Source: Nitrospirota bacterium
GTDB lineage: Bacteria > Nitrospirota > Nitrospiria > Nitrospirales > Nitrospiraceae
Reading direction: 5' to 3'
Assembly (NCBI GenBank): GCA_004296885.1
Contig: SCVN01000023.1
Span: 310,001 to 374,000, forward strand
DNA: 64,000 bases
Position 1 is the first letter of the stretch; every line of letters starts with the position of its first letter. This document shows, piece by piece, positions 3 through 15,441 of this stretch. Made by a program: the position numbers and the translations under genes. The notes below the pieces were generated by a model. That model was not told the DNA's origin, did not search any database, and worked only from the letters and a program-made list of their open reading frames with translations.

Positions 3-1133
3 CTGGCTGATATCCTGAAGGACCCCCAGGCCACTATCGCCACGGTGACCGGTCTGCTGAAGCAAGGGAAGGCCTATGGAGTGGCGCCGGTCGGGCTCCA
101 GCCTGGGTTGCCGGTCACGGTGCACGCACGGACCTATCGCTATGGGCTCTACGTGCCGCCGACCTATGACCCGACGAAGGAATATGCGTTGGTGTTGTGT
201 CTCCACGGGGCCGGCTTCACCGGCGATGCCTATTTGGAACGATGGCAGACCCGCCTCGGGGAGAACTATATCCTGGCTTGCCCCACCTACATGCAGGGCA
301 CCTGGTGGACCAGACACGGAGAAGAGCTCGTCCTGGCCACGCTCCGGACCGTGCAAGCGCGCTATCATATCGATCCGGACCGGGTCTTCCTGACCGGCAT
401 GTCGAACGGCGGCATCGGGACCTATCTTGTCGGCACCCACAATGCGCCCCTCTTCGCCGGGCTCGCGCCGATGGCCAGCGGCCTGGATACCGTGCTCATG
501 CCGTTTTTGGAGAATCTAAAGAACACGCCGGTCTATATGATCCATGGCCGTCAGGACGACGTCATGCCGGTCGAACTCAGCCGGGCGATCGCGCAAGAGT
601 TGACCCGCCTCGGCTATGTCTTCCAGTATCAGGAACATGACCGGGTGCATCCCATGGCCGGCGGACACTTTTTCCCGCGCGAAGAGTTGCCCGCCTTGGT
701 CCGCTGGTTCGACGGCCAGCGCCGTACCGCCTTGCCCAAGCGCCTGATCGTCGCCCGCGACGCCACGCACCTGACGCCCTTCGGATGGGCCAGGATCGAC
801 GCCACGGACCGGATTGCGGCCTTCACGGACCTCTTGACCGACAGCCGGGACGAAGCTATCGTGAGCCGCCGCTACGCGCGACTGGATGCAGAGATCGTCG
901 GCCCCAATCGCATTGAAGTACGAACCGAACGGGTGAAGCGGTACAGTCTCTACCTGAACGAGACTTTGGTGGACTTCTCCCAACCGGTGACGATTACGAC
1001 GAACGGACGGATCGGTTTTCAAGGGCTGGTCGTCCCCGGCATGGAGACCTTGCTGCGGGACGCGCGGCAGCGCCAGGACAGACGAATGTTGTTCCCGGTC
1101 CTGCTCCACCTCGCCATGGAGGATGTGCCGTGA
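3..1133 (+). CDS. Alpha/beta-hydrolase, PHB-depolymerase/esterase-like (5' end beyond window)
   Basis: Probable serine esterase of the alpha/beta-hydrolase fold. Counting from a GTG at 45, an oxyanion-type LHGAG lies at residues 53-57, the nucleophile elbow GMSNGG places Ser120, an acidic residue follows in HGRQDD (171-172), and His202 or His208 closes the triad. This layout is typical of PHB depolymerase-like and phospholipase/carboxylesterase families. The frame is open upstream to the window edge, so the true start probably lies outside; GTG 45 is only the first internal candidate. The roughly 130 residues after the hydrolase domain are unassigned. The stop overlaps the next start by 4 nt (GTGA), so the first three genes look translationally coupled. 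The substrate cannot be told from sequence. Confidence 0.75.
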   Translation: MADILKDPQATIATVTGLLKQGKAYGVAPVGLQPGLPVTVHARTYRYGLYVPPTYDPTKEYALVLCLHGAGFTGDAYLERWQTRLGENYILACPTYMQGTWWTRHGEELVLATLRTVQARYHIDPDRVFLTGMSNGGIGTYLVGTHNAPLFAGLAPMASGLDTVLMPFLENLKNTPVYMIHGRQDDVMPVELSRAIAQELTRLGYVFQYQEHDRVHPMAGGHFFPREELPALVRWFDGQRRTALPKRLIVARDATHLTPFGWARIDATDRIAAFTDLLTDSRDEAIVSRRYARLDAEIVGPNRIEVRTERVKRYSLYLNETLVDFSQPVTITTNGRIGFQGLVVPGMETLLRDARQRQDRRMLFPVLLHLAMEDVP

Positions 1134-6668: not shown

Positions 6669-6698
6669 TTGACAGCCAAAAGAGCCGAAGAGTAGCAT
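6669..6698 (+). promoter_or_regulatory. Sigma70 promoter of the caspase-fold/TPR gene
   Basis: A perfect -35 TTGACA (6669-6674), an 18-nt spacer and -10 TAGCAT (6693-6698). The expected transcription start is about 6705, two bases from ATG 6707, so the message would be leaderless or nearly so. No Shine-Dalgarno sequence is present. Confidence 0.55.
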
Positions 6699-6706
6699 CG
6701 GCCACC

Positions 6707-8092
6707 ATGGTTCGCTCGCGTCAACAGGGCCTGCACCTCTGCCGCACCGGCCTCCTCGCCTGGGCCTTCGTCTTGTCGCTCATTCCGACCGCAAGCGCTC
6801 AACTGGGCCGCCCCGAAGGGCTCTACTACAAATCCTGGGCCGTCGTGATCGGCATCAACGATTACCTGGTCGCGCCCAAGCTGGACGGAGCCGTCGAGGA
6901 CGGGAAGGCGGTGGCCGAGGCGTTCCGCAAGCTCGGGTTTCAAGAGGTGCTCGAAGTCTATAACAAGGACGCCAGTTCCAAGCGCATGCACCTCATCCTG
7001 AACGAGTACCTGCCCCGCAAAGTCGGGCGCCACGACCGGGTCGTGATCTTCTTTGCCGGCCACGCCGGCGCCAGCCAGGACATGCACAACAAGGACATCG
7101 GCTACCTGGTTCCCTGGGATGCCCAGGTCTCCAACGTGTCCAAGGCCGTGACCATGGACCATTTGAAGGAATTCTCCCGCCGCGTCATGGCCAAACACGT
7201 GTTGTTCGTGTTGGACAGCGCCGTGTCCGGCTGGGACATCACGCCGCCCCAGCCACTGTCGCTGGAAGGCCGCCTCTCGCCGGAAGAAGACACGGACAAA
7301 CGGGCCGTGCAAGTCCTGAGCGCCGCCCGCCAGGGCGGGACGCTGTCCAGGAAGAACGGGCAGGGGACGTTCGTCACGGCCTTCCTCGCCGGGGTGCAGG
7401 GCGCCGCGGACGAGAACAAGAACGGCTGGATCATGGCCAGCGAAATCGGGGCCTACGTCATCACGCAGGTGAACCGGCTCAGCGGCGGCTCCCAACAGCC
7501 TCAATTCGCCCGCCTCGACGGAGAGGGAGACACGGTCCTGGTCGAAGGGAAAATGAGCGCCTACCGGGCCGGGCCCGAGCCCAGGACGGAAGCGGAACGG
7601 ACCGCGGCAGCCAAAGAAGAATACGACAAGGCCTTCAGCCTCCTCCAGCAGCAGAAAGAAAAATCGCTGGAGGAAGCGCTTGAGCGGCTGGAGAAAGCCA
7701 TCCGGTACAGTCCCGCGTTCGGCGACGCCTACGTCCTGAAGAGTTACCTGTACCTGGATCGCCTGAACAAGTTGGACGAAGCCTTGTCGGCCGGGGAACT
7801 GGCGGTCAAGCATGCGCCGACCAACCCGGACGCCCACTACACGCTCGGGCTCGTGCTACAGAAAAAAGGCCGGTACAAGGACGCGGAAAAGGCGTTTCTC
7901 CAAGCCCTTGCCGTCAACCCCGGCTACTCGGACGTCCATCTGTCGCTCGGCGATCTCTATGCCGACGACTTAAAGGACCGACCGAAAGCCGTGGCCTCCT
8001 ACCAGCGGTACCTGGAAACCGGAGGGAACGAAAACCGCGTGCGGGACTACCTCGGCAAGGCCAACGCAACGGACCAGCCCACAAAACAGTGA
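6707..8092 (+). CDS. Exported caspase-fold (C14-like) protein with TPRs, catalytic Cys replaced
   Basis: A 461-residue exported protein. A signal peptide covers about residues 1-31 (ending ASA). A caspase-like p20 domain follows from SWAVVIGINDY: the His motif FFAGHAG places His119, but the motif normally reading D-A-C-x-S-G is DSAVSG, with Ala172 (GCC, 7220-7222) where the nucleophilic Cys should be. After a charged coiled stretch (about 290-320), tetratricopeptide repeats fill the C-terminus (AFGDAYVLKSYLYLDR, ...DAHYTLGLVLQKKGRYKDAEKAF). It is therefore probably a non-proteolytic scaffold or binding protein in the periplasm. ATG 6707 is chosen because it opens the signal peptide; the open frame upstream is read-through. 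Confidence 0.8.
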   Translation: MVRSRQQGLHLCRTGLLAWAFVLSLIPTASAQLGRPEGLYYKSWAVVIGINDYLVAPKLDGAVEDGKAVAEAFRKLGFQEVLEVYNKDASSKRMHLILNEYLPRKVGRHDRVVIFFAGHAGASQDMHNKDIGYLVPWDAQVSNVSKAVTMDHLKEFSRRVMAKHVLFVLDSAVSGWDITPPQPLSLEGRLSPEEDTDKRAVQVLSAARQGGTLSRKNGQGTFVTAFLAGVQGAADENKNGWIMASEIGAYVITQVNRLSGGSQQPQFARLDGEGDTVLVEGKMSAYRAGPEPRTEAERTAAAKEEYDKAFSLLQQQKEKSLEEALERLEKAIRYSPAFGDAYVLKSYLYLDRLNKLDEALSAGELAVKHAPTNPDAHYTLGLVLQKKGRYKDAEKAFLQALAVNPGYSDVHLSLGDLYADDLKDRPKAVASYQRYLETGGNENRVRDYLGKANATDQPTKQ

Positions 8093-8183: not shown

Positions 8184-8354
8184 TCAATCCTGCGCTCCGC
8201 CCTTCATATATCCGAGGCCGATCTTGAGCGCCCGCCTGGTGATTTCCGCCCAGCGTACTTCCGGATATTCGGCCAGCACCGCCGCCGCCTTGGAATCCAT
8301 CACGTCCAGATCCTTGACCTTAATGATCCCATCTTCAATTTTGACATCAGCCAC
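8184..8354 (-). CDS. Small hypothetical protein (56 aa)
   Basis: A 56-residue acidic/basic protein. GTG 8354 is chosen because GGAGGA lies 6 nt upstream; a longer frame to 8426 lacks a ribosome site. The N-terminal half is beta-like (VADVKIEDGIIKVKDLDV) and the rest could form two helices (SKAAAVLAEYPEVRWAEITRRALKIG). The layout resembles small ribbon-helix-helix DNA-binding proteins or antitoxins, but no toxin partner is adjacent, so I leave the function open. It is convergent with the caspase-fold gene across the 8103-8179 hairpin. Confidence 0.55.
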   Translation of the reverse strand: MADVKIEDGIIKVKDLDVMDSKAAAVLAEYPEVRWAEITRRALKIGLGYMKGGAQD

Positions 8355-8481: not shown

Positions 8482-8510
8482 TTGACAGGGTGGGGGGTGC
8501 ATGCTAGCAT
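8482..8510 (+). promoter_or_regulatory. Sigma70 promoter of the lipoprotein cluster
   Basis: A perfect -35 TTGACA (8482-8487), a 17-nt spacer and -10 TAGCAT (8505-8510). This predicts a start near 8517 and a leader of about 97 nt to the first lipoprotein gene. The same TAGCAT box is used upstream of the caspase-fold gene. Confidence 0.6.
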
Positions 8511-8613: not shown

Positions 8614-9180
8614 ATGAGGTTGAACACGAATGTGCCGACACAGTGGCTCCGCAGCGGTCTGGCGCTGGCCTTGCTGCTCACGCTCTCGGCTTGCGGCGGC
8701 CCGCCCGCCTGGGTGAAGAAGGGCTCCGCGGCCTACAACGAGAAGGATTCCAAGCAGATCTATGGGGTCGGCTCGGTCGTAGGCGTCCGCAACGAGCCCC
8801 TGGCCTGGGACGCGGCCGAAAACATGGCCCGCGCGGAGATCACCAAGCGGTTCCAGACCTACACCGCCTATCTGATGAGAAACTACGCCGCCTCCACCAC
8901 CGCGGCGGATTTCAGCAAGTCCACGGAAGAACAGAACGTCGAGCGGGCCGTGAAGACCTTCTCCTCCGGCACTCTGTCCGGCGTCATGCCGGTGGACCGG
9001 TACAAGGACGAGGACAGCCTGACCTACTATGTGCTCGTCAAGATGGACTTGAAGTCCATGCAGGAGGCGCTGGCCCAGAGCAAGGAACTCTCCCCCCAAG
9101 TCCGCGACTATGTCCGCCAGAACGGGGAGAAGCTCTTCGAGAAGCTGGAAAAAGAAGAAACCAAGCGGGACAGCAAGTAA
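8614..9180 (+). CDS. LPP20-family lipoprotein
   Basis: A 188-residue lipoprotein: an N-terminal basic/hydrophobic signal ends in a lipobox, LTLSAC (Cys about residue 27), then PPAWVKKGSAAYNEKDSKQI, an opening seen in LPP20-like proteins. The domain continues to about residue 150 and ends in a charged helix. AAGGAGG precedes ATG 8614. It is the first gene of a four-lipoprotein cluster with LpoB-like and COG3014-like proteins. LPP20/LpoB/COG3014 genes are known to cluster, and LpoB activates the peptidoglycan synthase PBP1b in enterobacteria. A role at the envelope, perhaps in peptidoglycan control, is therefore inferred. Confidence 0.8.
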   Translation: MRLNTNVPTQWLRSGLALALLLTLSACGGPPAWVKKGSAAYNEKDSKQIYGVGSVVGVRNEPLAWDAAENMARAEITKRFQTYTAYLMRNYAASTTAADFSKSTEEQNVERAVKTFSSGTLSGVMPVDRYKDEDSLTYYVLVKMDLKSMQEALAQSKELSPQVRDYVRQNGEKLFEKLEKEETKRDSK

Positions 9181-9190
9181 GAACCGCCGA

Positions 9191-9254
9191 ATGAGGAATG
9201 ATGAAGACATGTCTTCGCATCGATTCACCATTCACCATTCACCATTGAACATTT
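9191..9254. repeat. Short-word hairpin (ATTCACC words) at the start of the LpoB-like gene
   Basis: GAATGAGGAATGATGAAGACA on one side faces three tandem ATTCACC units on the other, around a perfect 14-nt palindrome GAAGACATGTCTTC (9203-9216). The right arm is read as coding sequence of the next gene, giving RFTIHHSPLNIS. It is a member of the short-word hairpin set. Confidence 0.6.
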
Positions 9255-9850
9255 CTGCGGTGGCGATGTTCGTATTGGCCGTCGCCACCGCAACGACCGG
9301 CTGCGGCGAATCCACGAGGGTCACCCGCGTGGATTCGGGCGTCGTCACCGACTTCAGCGGTCGCTGGAACGACACCGACTCGCGCCTCGTGGCCGAGTCC
9401 ATGGTCAAGGAAGCCCTGGACAACCCCTGGCTCGCCAAGTACAGGAGCGCGAAGGGGCGGCAGCCCGTGGTCGTCGTCGGCACCATCCTCAACCGGAGCA
9501 GCGAACACATCAACGTCCAGACCTTCGTCTCCGACCTGGCGCGCGAGCTGACGAATTCGCAAAAAGTCACGTTCGTGGCCGGCAAGGCAGAACGGGAGGA
9601 ACTCCGCGAAGAACGCCGCGCGCAAGCCGAGCAGGCCCGCGAGGACACGCAAAAATCGCCGGGCAAGGAGATCGGCGCCGACTTCATGCTGAAAGGCAAT
9701 ATCTCCACGATCGTGGACGAATCCGAGGGCGTGCGCGCCATCTTCTATCAGGTGGATTTGGAGATGATCGATCTGGAAAACAACGTGAAGTCCTGGTTCG
9801 GACAGAAGAAGATCAAAAAAGTCGTCGAACGGAAACGCACGGTTTTTTAG
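9209..9850 (+). CDS. LpoB-like penicillin-binding-protein activator lipoprotein
   Basis: About 213 residues. A hydrophobic segment ends in a lipobox (ATATTGC), followed by a domain with VTDFSGRWNDTDSRLVAESM, VVVVGTILNRSSEHIN and GADFMLKGNISTI. These are typical of the LpoB/COG3417 family, outer-membrane lipoproteins that stimulate PBP1b. The start is uncertain: ATGs at 9191, 9209 and 9266 are in frame, none has a good ribosome site, and the first two lie inside a repeat element that encodes SHRFTIHHSPLNIS. I chose 9209 because it gives a basic N-region without the acidic NDED. The gene lies between LPP20-like and COG3014-like genes. Confidence 0.8.
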   Translation: MSSHRFTIHHSPLNISAVAMFVLAVATATTGCGESTRVTRVDSGVVTDFSGRWNDTDSRLVAESMVKEALDNPWLAKYRSAKGRQPVVVVGTILNRSSEHINVQTFVSDLARELTNSQKVTFVAGKAEREELREERRAQAEQAREDTQKSPGKEIGADFMLKGNISTIVDESEGVRAIFYQVDLEMIDLENNVKSWFGQKKIKKVVERKRTVF

Positions 9851-9874
9851 GCCCGCCTGTTCGTGAGTCCGGCC

Positions 9875-11368
9875 ATGTCATCCTCGGCCTCTCCGGCTCG
9901 GACAGTGTCCGGCCCGCCCTCGCGGTTTCGGCTCTCCGCCATAGCCGGCCTCCTCGGGCTCCTGCTCGTGACCGGCTGCACCTCCCCCAGCACCCGCTAT
10001 GCGCGGGTCGATCACAGTCTCCTGGCCGGCAATCCCCAGCAAGCCGACCAGATCATCGAACAGGCCGAGGAGGAGTACGGCACCGTCAGCCGGGTGTTGT
10101 ACCGGATGGATCGGGGCATGACCCTCCATCTGGCCGGACGTTATCAGGACAGCACCGCGTTGCTGGAACAAGCGGAATCCGAAGTCGAGGAACTCTACAC
10201 CAGACGGGTGCGCACCGAAGCCAAAGCCTTTCTGGTCAACGATACGCTGCTGCCCTACGAAGGCGAGCCTTACGAGCAAGTCATGCTCAACGTCCTCAAG
10301 GCGCTGAATTATGCCGCCACCGGTCAGTGGAACGATGCCCTGGTCGAGGCACGACGGATCGACCAGCGGCTCAACCTGTTGGCCGATCAAGCCGGCGACA
10401 AAGACGCGTACCGCGACGACGCCTTCGCCCGCTACCTGACCGGCATCCTCTACGAATCCACCGGCGACCAGAACAACGCCTTTATCGCCTACCGCAAAGC
10501 CTACGACCGGTATCAAGCGGCCCAGCCCTGGGCGCGCGTTCCGCCGCCGCCTACGCTGCGCGCGGACTTGTTGCGCACCAGCGAAGCCCTCGGCCTGACG
10601 CAGGAGCATGAAGAGTACAAGCAAGCCTTCCAGGGCCTGTCCTGGGAGCCGGCCCAGAAGCTCCGGGAATTCGCCCAGATCGTGGTGATCAGCTATAATG
10701 GCCGGGCGCCGCACAAAGAGGACCAGTTCATCGACCTCCCGGTCAGCCTCGACGCCTTGCGCCTGGTGCTGATGACCAAGGGAGCCCTGGGGCGCAGCAA
10801 TCAGGATACGCGGGGAGCGGAAACATTGCTCTATGGGTTGAGCGGGCAAGTGGTGCGCGTGGCGCTGCCCAAACTGGTCCCGCACAAGACGGGGATCGCG
10901 CACGAAGAAGTGACGGCGACCGGGGCGGGAGGAGATTACTTCGCCAAGACCGAGTTGACGCAGGACATCAGCGCCCTGGCGGCCAAGAGCTTGAACGACC
11001 GGTACGCGCAGATTGTGCGCAAGGCCGTCGCCCGCGGCGCGATCAAATATGCCTTGGCCGAAGGAGTCGGGCGGGGAGCGCGCATGGCGGCGTCCAGCCA
11101 AGGCAATCAAAGCTTCGGCCCCCTGATCGGCCTGCTGGTGGGAGGACTGGCCCATGCCCTGGCGATCGGCACGGAAGAATCGGACAAACGAAGCTGGCGC
11201 ACGATGCCGGATGAAATTCAGATCGCCCGGCTCTGGGTGCCGCCCGGCTCCTACCAGGTGCGGGTCCGACCGGTCAATCGCAACGGAACGCCGGGCCACG
11301 GCCTGGTTCAATCCGTTATCCTGCAAGCGGGAGAAACCCGGTTGTTGACCGAGCAGGCACTGCCATAA
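9875..11368 (+). CDS. COG3014-like lipoprotein with TPR-type repeats
   Basis: About 497 residues. The signal segment ends in the lipobox LLVTGC, then helical repeats follow (TRYARVDHSLLAGNPQQADQ, ...MTLHLAGRYQDSTALLEQAE, ...YLTGILYESTGDQNNAFIAY) over roughly residues 35-240, as in COG3014 proteins. The C-terminal half is beta-rich and contains a glycine-rich hydrophobic stretch (SFGPLIGLLVGGLAHALAIG). ATG 9875 is preferred over GTG 9863; neither has a clear ribosome site. It lies 24 nt after the LpoB-like gene. An outer-membrane scaffold role is inferred from its neighbours. Confidence 0.75.
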   Translation: MSSSASPARTVSGPPSRFRLSAIAGLLGLLLVTGCTSPSTRYARVDHSLLAGNPQQADQIIEQAEEEYGTVSRVLYRMDRGMTLHLAGRYQDSTALLEQAESEVEELYTRRVRTEAKAFLVNDTLLPYEGEPYEQVMLNVLKALNYAATGQWNDALVEARRIDQRLNLLADQAGDKDAYRDDAFARYLTGILYESTGDQNNAFIAYRKAYDRYQAAQPWARVPPPPTLRADLLRTSEALGLTQEHEEYKQAFQGLSWEPAQKLREFAQIVVISYNGRAPHKEDQFIDLPVSLDALRLVLMTKGALGRSNQDTRGAETLLYGLSGQVVRVALPKLVPHKTGIAHEEVTATGAGGDYFAKTELTQDISALAAKSLNDRYAQIVRKAVARGAIKYALAEGVGRGARMAASSQGNQSFGPLIGLLVGGLAHALAIGTEESDKRSWRTMPDEIQIARLWVPPGSYQVRVRPVNRNGTPGHGLVQSVILQAGETRLLTEQALP

Positions 11369-11372
11369 GGAG

Positions 11373-11498
11373 TGTCTCAATAATCACTGTACAATCCGTT
11401 CGTGGTGAGCCTGTCGCACCAGGAACGGAACCCTTCGCTGGAGTGCCTCCTTCGACGGGCTCAGGGCGAACGGGATATGACAAGGCCATTGAGAGACA
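11373..11498. repeat. Nested inverted-repeat element between lipoprotein genes
   Basis: Outer arms TGTCTCAAT (11373-11381) and ATTGAGAGACA (11488-11498) enclose inner 21-nt arms 11396-11416 and 11453-11473 (opening CCGTTCGTGGTGAGCC, closing GGGCTCAGGGCGAACGG) that match at about 16 of 21 positions. Sequences like the inner arm recur widely in bacterial genomes as intergenic palindromes. It separates the third and fourth lipoprotein genes and may partly terminate or stabilise the transcript. Confidence 0.6.
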
Positions 11499-11517
11499 TA
11501 ACCCTCGTAGAACGACG

Positions 11518-12675
11518 ATGGATCACCACCGAGCGCACCGCATGAGACGCCGGATCGTCATCTCATGCTCGTTGTTCGCCCTGCTGACCCTGAGCGGATG
11601 CGCCTGGCTCGGCCAGAGCAAGCCCCCGTCCTGGATTCTCGGCCCCAGCAAGGAGTATCCGCCGGACCAATACCTCACCGGCGTCGGCCAGGCCGATGCG
11701 CAAGACGCAGCGAACGACCGGGCCTACGGGGCCGTAGCCAAGATATTCAAAGCCGAGGTCGATGCGCAGGCCAGAGATTGGGAGTCCTTCCTCCAATTCG
11801 AGAATCGCGGCACCACCAGCGTCGAACGACGCCTCACCCTGGACCACGTCACCCGAGTTTCCACCGACAAGATCTTGGAGAACGTACGGATCATGGCCGG
11901 CTGGTCCGACGAAAAGACGGGCCAGCATTATGCCCTCGCCGTCATGAGCCGGGCGCAGGCCGGGACCGCCATGCTGGGGCGCATCGGAGAGCTGGACGAC
12001 CAAGTGGAGACCGAGTTGAAGGAGTTTCGCCAGACCCAAGACAAGCTAGCCAAGCTGCGGCACCTCCGGCGGGCCATCAAGAGCTTGGTCTTGCGGGAGG
12101 CCCACAATGCGGACCTCCGCATCATCCGCCAAAGCGGGCAGGGCACCGCCTCCAATTACAAGGTGGCCGAACTGACGGCGGAGCTCGAACAGTTTCTCTC
12201 CTCCAATCTGGCCGTCAGTGTGGAGGTGACCGGCGCCCAGGCCGAGCCGGTCCGCAGGGCCGTCATGGAAGGATTGATCCGCGAGGGGTTGCCCGTCACC
12301 GCCAAACCGACCGTCCAGACCGGCACGAACGGGCAGGTCGGCGGAGAGCCGGGCAGCCGGCCGCTGGAATTGCTGGCCAAGGGCACCGTCCGGCTCTGGA
12401 ATGCCAACGTGCCCGACCCCCGGTTTCGCTACGTCCGCTGGTGCAGCGACTTTGTCGTCGTGGAGAGCGGCTCCCAGCGGGTGGTCGGAGCCGTGTCTCG
12501 ATCAGGCAAGGAAGGGCATCTGACCGAGGGAGAGGCCAACGCCAAAGCCGTACGCGTGATGCAACAGGAATTGACGTCCGAACTGGCCAAGACACTGGCC
12601 GGGTATGTCTATGGAGAAGTGGACCCGCCGACGGCCATTCCTCCGGCGGCCTGCCCGCAAGAAGAGGGACGGTAG
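11518..12675 (+). CDS. LPP20-family lipoprotein, long form
   Basis: A 385-residue lipoprotein. The basic N-region (MRRRIVISC at ATG 11542 is an alternative start) and lipobox TLSGCAW are followed by KPPSWILGPSKEYPPDQYLTG, the LPP20-like opening, then a helical region with a coiled segment (DDQVETELKEFRQTQDKLAK, about 160-180). The C-terminal 150 residues form a separate domain (LSSNLAVSVEVTGAQAEPVR) reminiscent of envelope proteins that bind partners, but I cannot name it. It closes the lipoprotein cluster after an inverted-repeat element and precedes a toxin-antitoxin-like pair. Confidence 0.7.
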   Translation: MDHHRAHRMRRRIVISCSLFALLTLSGCAWLGQSKPPSWILGPSKEYPPDQYLTGVGQADAQDAANDRAYGAVAKIFKAEVDAQARDWESFLQFENRGTTSVERRLTLDHVTRVSTDKILENVRIMAGWSDEKTGQHYALAVMSRAQAGTAMLGRIGELDDQVETELKEFRQTQDKLAKLRHLRRAIKSLVLREAHNADLRIIRQSGQGTASNYKVAELTAELEQFLSSNLAVSVEVTGAQAEPVRRAVMEGLIREGLPVTAKPTVQTGTNGQVGGEPGSRPLELLAKGTVRLWNANVPDPRFRYVRWCSDFVVVESGSQRVVGAVSRSGKEGHLTEGEANAKAVRVMQQELTSELAKTLAGYVYGEVDPPTAIPPAACPQEEGR

Positions 12676-12717
12676 GGAATGGCCGTCCGGCACCGGATCA
12701 CCCATGAGGGAGAGTCT

Positions 12718-13011
12718 ATGTCTAAATCGGTGAAGCTCAGCGCCGGCAAAGCCAAGCCGGCAAAAACGCGCAAACCGGCGGCGCCCGACCGTCAAGCCGC
12801 CTCAAGCGACAGCCGGCAAGGCTCCAGCCGCCAGGGCAAGAAACGTGTGTTGGAACGGATCAAGCAGGACACCGGCCAGATTCAAGCCGGCAGTCTCATG
12901 GCTTCGTTGCGGAAGCAGGGCTATGAGGAGTTGCCGCTGGAAGAAATCCAGGATCGGCTGTCCAAGCTCCGCACGTCGCTCGCGGAATTCATCGTGTCCA
13001 GGAGGGGATGA
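12718..13011 (+). CDS. Putative antitoxin partner of the PIN protein
   Basis: A 97-residue basic protein. ATG 12718 is chosen because GAGGGAGAG precedes it; an ATG at 12679 would only add an unlikely stretch. The N-terminal 50 residues are Lys/Ala/Ser-rich and likely disordered; the C-terminal half (KKRVLERIKQDTGQIQAG ... EEIQDRLSKLRTSLAEFIVS) should be helical. Its stop is 3 nt before the PIN-domain gene, the usual antitoxin-toxin order. I do not recognise the DNA-binding fold, so antitoxin is inferred from position. Confidence 0.5.
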   Translation: MSKSVKLSAGKAKPAKTRKPAAPDRQAASSDSRQGSSRQGKKRVLERIKQDTGQIQAGSLMASLRKQGYEELPLEEIQDRLSKLRTSLAEFIVSRRG

Positions 13012-13014
13012 ACG

Positions 13015-13458
13015 ATGCCCGTCTACTATTTCGATACGTCAGCGCTCGTCAAACGCTACAGCCGTGAACGGGGCACGAAGACCGTGAACGCCCTGCTGGC
13101 CAAGCGCGGCCGCCTCGCCATCCTCGGATCGGTGGCCATCCCGGAATTCTATGCGGCCCTGGCGTTGAAAGCCAGGCTCGGAGAGTTAACGAGGGACGAC
13201 TGGTATTCGGTCCTGTTCAAATTCGAGGCGGAATCGGATCGCGGGCTCTTTCAGTTCGTCACCCCGTCCAGCCGGACATACCTGGCGACCAAGCAGTTCA
13301 TCCTCGACTATCCGTTTCTCCGCAGCGCCCAGGCCATTCATCTGGTGTTGGCGCAGGAACTGCGCCCTTTGCGGCTCTCATTCGTGAGTTCGGACCGACA
13401 GGCGCTGGAGCTCTGCCGCCCCTTCGGCATCACACCGATCAATCCGGAGGACGACTGA
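13015..13458 (+). CDS. PIN-domain protein (VapC-like) with one altered acidic residue
   Basis: A 147-residue PIN-domain protein, the size of VapC ribonuclease toxins. The acidic residues expected to bind metal are Asp7 (YFDTSALVK), Glu44 (IPEFYAA) and Asp127 (FVSSDRQALEL). The third conserved acid, normally Asp in L-R-x-x-D-A-x-H, is Gln106 here (LRSAQAIHL, codon CAG), which may weaken or abolish nuclease activity. It lies 3 nt downstream of a small basic protein, probably its antitoxin. Translation coupling is likely. Confidence 0.75.
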   Translation: MPVYYFDTSALVKRYSRERGTKTVNALLAKRGRLAILGSVAIPEFYAALALKARLGELTRDDWYSVLFKFEAESDRGLFQFVTPSSRTYLATKQFILDYPFLRSAQAIHLVLAQELRPLRLSFVSSDRQALELCRPFGITPINPEDD

Positions 13459-14260: not shown

Positions 14261-15346
14261 CTATTGGATGTATTCCCATGTATCGATCTGCTTGAGCGAA
14301 TAGTTCACCGCGTCTTTCAGCTTTTTCTGCTTGGGGTCCGGGTCGGTGCTGTGCATCTTCTGGAGAGATTTGGAGAGGGCGAAGAGCGGCTCATACGAAC
14401 GCTTGTCGGGCAACTTCCCGAGGGCCAGGACGACCTCGGTCTTCACGCCGAGGTCGTCGTTCTTCAAGGCCTCGAGGAGGGGCGTGATCACCGAGAAATC
14501 GCTGTGCAGGGAGCCCAGCACCCCCAACCCCTTGGCCGCCGCCGCCGGCAACTCCGGCTTGCCGGACTGCATGGCCCCAACGAGGGCCGGAATACTGTCC
14601 TTGTTCCCGATATTGCCCAGCGCCACGGCCGCGGCTTTCGCCACCTCGAGGTCGGAGCCCTTCAGCTCTTTGAGCAACTGCGGGACCGCCTTCGCTGAAA
14701 ACAGATCGCCGAGCGCGACGACGATCTGCACCTTGCGCCCCGACGTGGCCGCCGGATCGTTCAGCATCTTGAGCAGCCGGTCTTCCTGCCCCCAGTCCGC
14801 CGTCACCAGGACCGGGAAGTCATACTGCGCCAGCCGCTCCGTCAGCTTCGCCAACGCATACTGGCCGGGATCGGCCGCCTTGGCCACGGCCGCCGCCTGG
14901 AGCGAATCCAAGAACTCCGTGCGGACCTCCTTCTGCCAGCCCAGTTTCTTGCCGCCCAGCAAATAGAGCAACTGGCAGGCCGGCCCCTTCCAGACACGGG
15001 ACGGGGAGTCGGGCAAGTCGGCATCGCTGCCCATCGTGGTCGTGCCTTCCCACACTTTCCGCTGCTCGCACTTCACCTTGAAGACCACATCGGACGGCTG
15101 CGCCGGGTCCGTCACCACTTGATAGCCGGCTTCCTTGAGCCGTTTGACCACGACCTCCTGAAGCGGGCCCGGTTCCACCGGCCCCTGATCCGTGATCGCC
15201 ACGACCTCGACCAGAATACGATCAACTTTGGCCAGCTGGGCTTTTTGCTCCGGCTCCAAGATGTCCCGGCGGGCCGACACGTCGGTGCCGAACAATGCGA
15301 TCATGCCGATCAGGATCAAGACGGATAAAGAAAGGGCTGGCTTCAT
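14261..15346 (-). CDS. Exported HEAT-repeat protein
   Basis: A 361-residue protein. ATG 15346 follows GGGAGGG and opens a signal peptide (residues 1-32, ending VSARR). Residues about 33-180 form an alpha/beta region of unknown type (KVDRILVEVVAITDQGPVEP). From about residue 190, HEAT-like helical pairs repeat (KVQIVVALGDLFSAKAVPQL, LEVAKAAAVALGNIGNKDSI, VKTEVVLALGKLPDKRSYEP), a fold for protein binding. It probably acts in the periplasm as an adaptor. It is divergent from proC and followed by another secreted protein. Confidence 0.7.
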   Translation of the reverse strand: MKPALSLSVLILIGMIALFGTDVSARRDILEPEQKAQLAKVDRILVEVVAITDQGPVEPGPLQEVVVKRLKEAGYQVVTDPAQPSDVVFKVKCEQRKVWEGTTTMGSDADLPDSPSRVWKGPACQLLYLLGGKKLGWQKEVRTEFLDSLQAAAVAKAADPGQYALAKLTERLAQYDFPVLVTADWGQEDRLLKMLNDPAATSGRKVQIVVALGDLFSAKAVPQLLKELKGSDLEVAKAAAVALGNIGNKDSIPALVGAMQSGKPELPAAAAKGLGVLGSLHSDFSVITPLLEALKNDDLGVKTEVVLALGKLPDKRSYEPLFALSKSLQKMHSTDPDPKQKKLKDAVNYSLKQIDTWEYIQ

Positions 15347-15441
15347 TGGACCCTCCCGCACAAGCAATAGAATGACTCCGCGTATGAGATGTAATCAGCT
15401 GCATGTCCGCAACTGTACCCAAGCCCTCCGGGGGTTGCAAG

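Follow-up and report, generated by a model that had tools for sequence, protein, structure and literature searches.

Caspase homologues that lack catalytic residues form a recognized class in bacteria. Among 9,994 bacterial orthocaspases 858 have been described as pseudo-orthocaspases, 90% of them in Alphaproteobacteria or Cyanobacteria, and it is from these two groups that most dead bacterial caspase homologues have been catalogued (PMC6426788). The main text of that survey describes His-Ala dyads as frequent among Rhizobiales and places TPRs behind the p20 domain in the Phe-Ser type (PMC6426788). The absence of a p10 domain is given as a trait of pseudo-orthocaspases in a report on the Synechocystis representative (PMC7889975). 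A survey from 2012 stated 57% dyad conservation in the caspase homologues of Nitrospirae (PMC3501461), so dead members of this phylum had already been counted.

The stretch of DNA analyzed here (64,000 nucleotides, referred to as the window) comes from a genome of the family Nitrospiraceae. Bacteria of the Nitrospira family are known for nitrite oxidation. The gene in question (Table 1) starts with ATG at 6707 and stops at 8090-8092, and residues 43-269 of its product, P0001, match Pfam Peptidase_C14 with 56 bits (cut-off 21.4). Several TPR families also exceed their Pfam cut-offs, and NCBIfam profiles gave no match above cut-off with P0001. Bases 7211-7231 read TTG GAC AGC GCC GTG TCC GGC, i.e. 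L169-D170-S171-A172-V173-S174-G175, which places Ala172, encoded by GCC, at the caspase nucleophile position; in the alignment it falls onto the Cys of DSCFSG and DVCFGG in C14 paralogues. His119 sits within FFAGHAG. The initial annotation had claimed a caspase fold with Ala at the catalytic Cys, a retained His motif and TPRs, and all of this is borne out: the Ala by these bases and the paralogue alignment, the His by its presence in 142/142 readable orthologous proteins, the TPRs by the Pfam families, and the fold by the C14 match together with the structure model described below.

An AlphaFold2 model was built from 29 sequences (mean pLDDT 81.2, pTM 0.55). Among the caspase-type PDB chains listed, its best match was MALT1 337..565 (Z 23.0, rmsd 2.8, 207 residues, 16% identity), also matched by Foldseek with E 8.9e-10, and caspase-7 was matched with Z 20.7; with the Pfam score, these two matches place P0001 in the peptidase C14/caspase fold. 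Model residues 38-281 were aligned with residues 63-303 of caspase-7, whose C-terminal end presumably holds p10, and since the model spans this region a p10-like part may be present in P0001. A sequence search of solved structures gave, among the 60 of 111 matches listed, only TPR or designed repeat-type proteins, in the TPR region; the caspase part was matched to solved structures by fold, and a common fold by itself shows no function. The hydrophobic N-terminal stretch ends in ASA/Q, and an A-x-A-like/QxG[KR]PE motif is present in 104 of 109 orthologues; among the five without it one lies on an N-terminally cut contig, one has unknown residues and three show small sequence differences. The signal peptide proposed by the initial annotation therefore stands as a signal-peptide-like start, and it is from this start that we infer a periplasmic location of the pseudo-caspase.

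Table 1. Coordinates of the features of the pseudo-caspase locus in the window.
Feature	Position	Strand	Evidence
Sigma-70-like promoter TTGACA-18-TAGCAT, upstream of the pseudo-caspase gene	6669..6698	+	consensus scan
Gene of the putatively exported pseudo-caspase-TPR protein (P0001, 461 aa)	6707..8092	+	translation; Pfam C14 + TPR; caspase-fold model
Signal-peptide-like N-terminus, residues 1-32, likely cut ASA/Q	6707..6802	+	sequence; motif in orthologues
Caspase-like domain, residues 38-283	6818..7555	+	MALT1 structural alignment; Pfam C14 43-269
His119, dyad histidine, invariant	7061..7063	+	109/109, 33/33 readable, 80/80 named loci (overlapping sets)
LDSAVSG, dead nucleophile motif; Ala172 codon 7220-7222	7211..7231	+	bases, translation, alignments
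TPR region, ~residues 295-451	7589..8059	+	model helices H295-H455; Pfam TPR matches
Small ORF, 56 aa, GTG start, between pseudo-caspase and lipoprotein genes	8184..8354	-	similarity in relatives
Sigma-70-like promoter TTGACA-17-TAGCAT, upstream of the lipoprotein operon	8482..8510	+	consensus scan
Lipoprotein operon: LPP20-like, LpoB, COG3014-like, LPP20	8614..12675	+	Pfam; intergenic gaps 23, 13, 75 bases

When 395 genomes of the phylum were searched with the protein, 114 had a match at E <= 1e-20. The window's family, represented by 110 genomes in that sample, accounts for 108; the remaining six lie outside it (29-33% identity), and the out-of-family C14 proteins examined (L235-L241) keep the Cys. 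Forty more genomes of the family, examined as a second set, added 35 with an orthologue, in two of them as a fragment, so that the gene is present in 143 of the 150 sampled genomes of the family. The seven without it are G179, G232, G395, G401, G403, G407 and G424, and in the first two the contigs begin just before the lipoprotein genes, which puts the place of the orthologue off the contig. For residue counts we used a set of 109 distinct orthologues, with the window (L009) represented once and L124 omitted as a duplicate of L010, and 33 readable sites from the second set (the L280 site is off its contig and the G396 fragment was left out). A scan of named records, which overlaps with the other orthologue sets, kept 80 loci out of 140 confirmed, all titled Nitrospira, Nitrospiraceae, Nitrospirae or Nitrospirota and including Nitrospira moscoviensis and Candidatus Nitrospira defluvii. 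Two diverged copies, both without the Cys, occur in one genome in N. moscoviensis (L145, L163) and in G310 (L026, L121). Among plasmid records 18 had matches, none of which covers 80% of the query; the five listed have 25-33% identity.

In none of the 142 readable orthologous proteins (109 + 33) is position 172 a Cys. It is occupied by P in 45, A in 33, N in 19, G in nine, S in two and E in one of the 109 orthologues, by A in 18, G in seven, N in seven and P in one of the 33 further ones, where His119 is again invariant (33/33), and by A (32), P (23), G (12), N (11) and S (2) in the overlapping 80 named loci, with His119 in 80/80. In contrast, all 34 other C14 proteins used for comparison (14 paralogues from the window's own genome plus 20 second-tier hits in the phylum) possess the catalytic Cys, as well as the equivalents of Asp65 and Asp170, which indicates that the Ala of P0001 is not a matter of chance. 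Whether Ala is fixed in the lineage was a check suggested with the initial annotation, and the alignment gives a divided answer: the absence of Cys is fixed, Ala itself is not. Neither an orthologue with Cys at 172 nor a Cys nucleophile elsewhere speaks against the earlier reading, as the mature protein is as a rule devoid of Cys (none in 178 of the 183 rows holding the start motif, one in the other five, with seven further rows without the motif left out of the count). P0001 and its orthologues thus lack the His-Cys dyad of an active C14 peptidase, with His119 present and the Cys absent in 142/142, and p20 homology with a substituted dyad residue makes P0001 a pseudo-orthocaspase.

The surroundings of the site have changed as well. 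Gly directly follows the His in 31 of the 34 other C14 proteins, in 0/109 orthologues and in 1/33 of the second set. Asp65 and Asp170 we take, from what is known of metacaspases, to be the S1 pocket (the oxyanion assignment is made likewise); Asp stands at both equivalents in 66/109 orthologues, P0001 among them, versus 34/34 other C14 proteins. Column 172 belongs to the more variable ones (entropy rank 206 of 246), and the His119 column is invariant. A seven-residue deletion after the dead motif was considered and rejected as an alignment effect, the fixed-column spacing being 28 throughout the orthologues and 24-33 (median 29) in the others. At least 98% invariance among the orthologues was found in 57 columns, of which 21 are rare in other C14 proteins: L39, Y41, A56, R74, E83, R104, K105, R108, K146, T149, K154, R159, W176, E187, G188, R189, P192, N239, W241, E280 and G281. 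Many of these are Arg or Lys, and all 21 are kept in the proteins without TPRs.

In the tree the 109 orthologues group together as a single clade (SH-aLRT 99), separate from the 34 other C14 proteins, and their nearest active kin is uncertain because long branches surround the clade. By simple pairwise estimates, dN/dS of the caspase domain has a median of 0.111 and a maximum of 0.396 (485 close pairs), and that of the TPR part a median of 0.106 (336 pairs); in proteins without TPRs the value for the caspase domain is 0.110 (51 pairs). From these sequence comparisons, the caspase domain is under strong purifying selection. The TPR part is absent from 22/109 orthologues in which the dead caspase domain is present, and its presence and absence need five changes on the tree, so by this count it is lost in several events. 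Internal stops in some genomes mostly remove the TPR part and leave the caspase domain intact, and L066 retains a recognizable TPR remnant beyond the stop. Since the TPRs were lost repeatedly while the dead domain stayed, at equal dN/dS, the dead domain is the maintained and constant part. Of the periplasmic pseudo-protease scaffold suggested by the initial annotation, the dead nucleophile and the signal-peptide-like start hold, and the scaffold itself is not supported as proposed: its most evident element, the TPR part, is absent from those 22 orthologues.

We hold with good confidence that P0001 is a putatively exported pseudo-caspase with a complete domain, in which the nucleophile was most simply lost once and which is kept by strong selection for a non-catalytic job. 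What the cell makes use of is probably the caspase shape itself rather than proteolysis, because the cutting residue is absent from every readable copy examined and the protein is nevertheless under strong selection. The loss would have occurred, most simply a single time, in the stem of the Nitrospiraceae; the protein would be secreted to the periplasm, where it would bind an envelope ligand or protein by way of the cleft that once was the active site, around His119 and Trp176, and/or of the clade-specific basic patch, and the TPRs would supply an optional second contact. Because many of the clade-specific invariant residues are basic we infer a binding surface, and with it an envelope protein that acts by binding and not by catalysis.

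The genomic neighborhood may offer a lead to its function. Upstream and divergent lies the gene of acetyl-CoA synthetase (acs), and downstream lie four lipoprotein genes, of which LpoB matches Pfam with 138 bits, the second LPP20 with 42.5 bits and the first, LPP20-like, with 25.3 bits, just below the cut-off; the third has no Pfam match and we take it to be COG3014-like. Both promoter-like sites are retained, with hexamers and spacing, in two relatives of the same genus. The 56-aa ORF would encode a conserved small protein: a similar sequence is found in 74 of the 80 orthologue loci and also in loci of sister families, and its Pfam scan gave no match. In these 80 loci, compared over flanks of ~4 kb (one longer, several ended by a contig edge), acs is adjacent in 79, LPP20a in 72 and LpoB in 71. 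In sister families of the order, acs and the lipoprotein genes occupy the same place, with another gene or nothing between them, and therefore the pseudo-caspase gene appears to have entered this site in the family's stem.

Alternatively, the protein might serve the LpoB/LPP20 outer-membrane lipoprotein operon specifically, as an accessory that tunes peptidoglycan synthesis, an explanation we consider rather unlikely. All four lipoprotein genes lie directly downstream on the same strand in 68/80 loci and the promoter hexamers are near-identical; moreover HetF, a caspase-type putative protease, is described to bind FtsI at the divisome (PMC8406250). However, a single operon with LpoB was considered and rejected due to a 522-base gap, the opposite-strand ORF and a promoter-like site of its own (a consensus match), and the pseudo-caspase gene is apparently its own transcription unit. 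Co-inheritance fails too, as G102 has the pseudo-caspase gene and no LpoB or COG3014-like match, and in G043, G036, G370 and G105 the lipoprotein genes are elsewhere or upstream of it. Sister families possess the acs-lipoprotein order without the pseudo-caspase, and on the opposite flank acs is conserved to the same degree, so synteny is general at this locus. The neighborhood is consequently a lead and not a proof of joint function, because the gene is retained in G102, and a link with the adjacent LPP20-LpoB lipoproteins is possible, if weakly supported.

Some further observations concern these neighborhoods. In another family of the class (L215 9712-11687) a caspase with Cys (DSCFSG), apparently split by a stop, adjoins LpoB and LPP20 genes. 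A protein of 640-659 aa is encoded beside the pseudo-caspase in a subclade whose lipoprotein genes have moved away (L069 1927-3903, also L072 and L073); in L069 it has a weak C14 match over residues 411-632, and a pattern search there gave no evident His-Cys motif. Tandem copies of a HEAT-repeat protein occur in sister-family genomes (L206, L207, L219-L221), and the window has one, at 14261-15367. At 12679-13458 of the window a small ORF is directly followed by a PIN-domain-like ORF, a pair which we take to be a toxin-antitoxin arrangement; a few relatives also have the PIN-like gene.

The genome of the window (3.26 Mb) has 15 C14 matches including P0001, and the other 14 all have the Cys. Three C14 proteins of this genome are encoded close together on C18, at 68-72 kb (L042). 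The two nearest paralogues, L001 and L006, also start with signal-peptide-like stretches and carry a long C-terminal part, which presumably is an FGE-sulfatase-type domain. In animals the pseudo-caspase c-FLIP regulates active caspases, and similarly the Nitrospiraceae protein might pair with, or act as a decoy of, exported Cys-bearing C14 paralogues. The paralogues just mentioned would suit such a role, and a pseudoprotease of another system, MamO, is described as activating the proteolysis that MamE carries out (PMC4794232). On the other hand, such a regulator would need an active caspase in each genome, and in a renewed search with the C14 profile (E 0.1) of 18 family genomes that had given few hits, the pseudo-caspase was the only C14 match in nine (G009, G195, G102, G105, G115, G159, G286, G222 and G234), by a profile that missed known pseudo-caspases in G163, G314 and G216. 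We see little chance that this explanation is correct. Similarly low we would put a reading in which the domain, converted once in the stem, is a His-lined module that senses a ligand or protein and controls the neighboring LPP20-LpoB lipoproteins, that is a periplasmic caspase-fold regulator of peptidoglycan synthesis without proteolysis.

It is very improbable that the protein has remained an enzyme in which His119 works together with a different nucleophile or a bound metal or cofactor. The invariance of His119, a residue that an enzyme would keep, and the invariant Ser43, Thr149 and tyrosines would fit such an activity; against it, no single nucleophile occupies position 172 (P in 45/109), mature proteins are usually without any Cys and the Gly that should follow the His is missing from 109/109. 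A decaying pseudogene or a sequencing error, as the internal stops or TPR loss in some genomes might suggest, is hardly credible and was ruled out by the 143/150 family genomes that hold the gene and by dN/dS of ~0.11, and the stops mostly cut the TPR part and spare the caspase domain.

The preferred reading, a dead caspase domain kept for a non-catalytic job, has counterparts among described systems. MamO is a bacterial degenerate protease with non-catalytic roles whose di-histidine motif binds metal, although it has a serine-protease fold unrelated to the pseudo-caspase and functions in magnetosomes (PMC4794232). HetF, with its CHAT domain, is caspase-type and acts on the cell-wall machinery via FtsI, but it is a cyanobacterial membrane protein and, unlike the pseudo-caspase, a putative active protease (PMC8406250). 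SyOC, the pseudo-orthocaspase of Synechocystis, is a dead homologue with a role, its knockout being more tolerant of oxidative stress; it is cyanobacterial, and its TPR or export context is not stated in the part of that report drawn on here (PMC7889975). Analysis of lineage, export, synteny or selection, as given here for the Nitrospiraceae protein, was not found in the corresponding part of the 2012 survey (PMC3501461). The main text of the orthocaspase survey does not contain the word Nitrospira (PMC6426788), and our literature searches found no account of a Nitrospiraceae pseudo-caspase lineage. The annotation “caspase family protein” in Nitrospira should not be taken as evidence of proteolytic cell death. 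This lineage is a clean natural experiment: a single clade spans a whole bacterial family, purifying selection has been constant, and the adjoining TPRs were lost time and again, so that the dead domain stands out as the part that does the work. The lineage shares with the pseudo-orthocaspases of Klemencic et al. (2019) p20-type homology without part of the His-Cys dyad; it differs from them, as far as their main text describes them, in an invariant His with a freely variable Cys position, in an acidic pocket that is reported as highly conserved there, as a tendency rather than a strict requirement, and only partly kept here, and in being seemingly exported, near-universal in one family and repeatedly deprived of its TPRs (PMC6426788). 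Pseudo-orthocaspases are thus known as a class, and what appears new is a family-wide, His-retaining and putatively exported lineage in which the dead domain outlives the TPRs.
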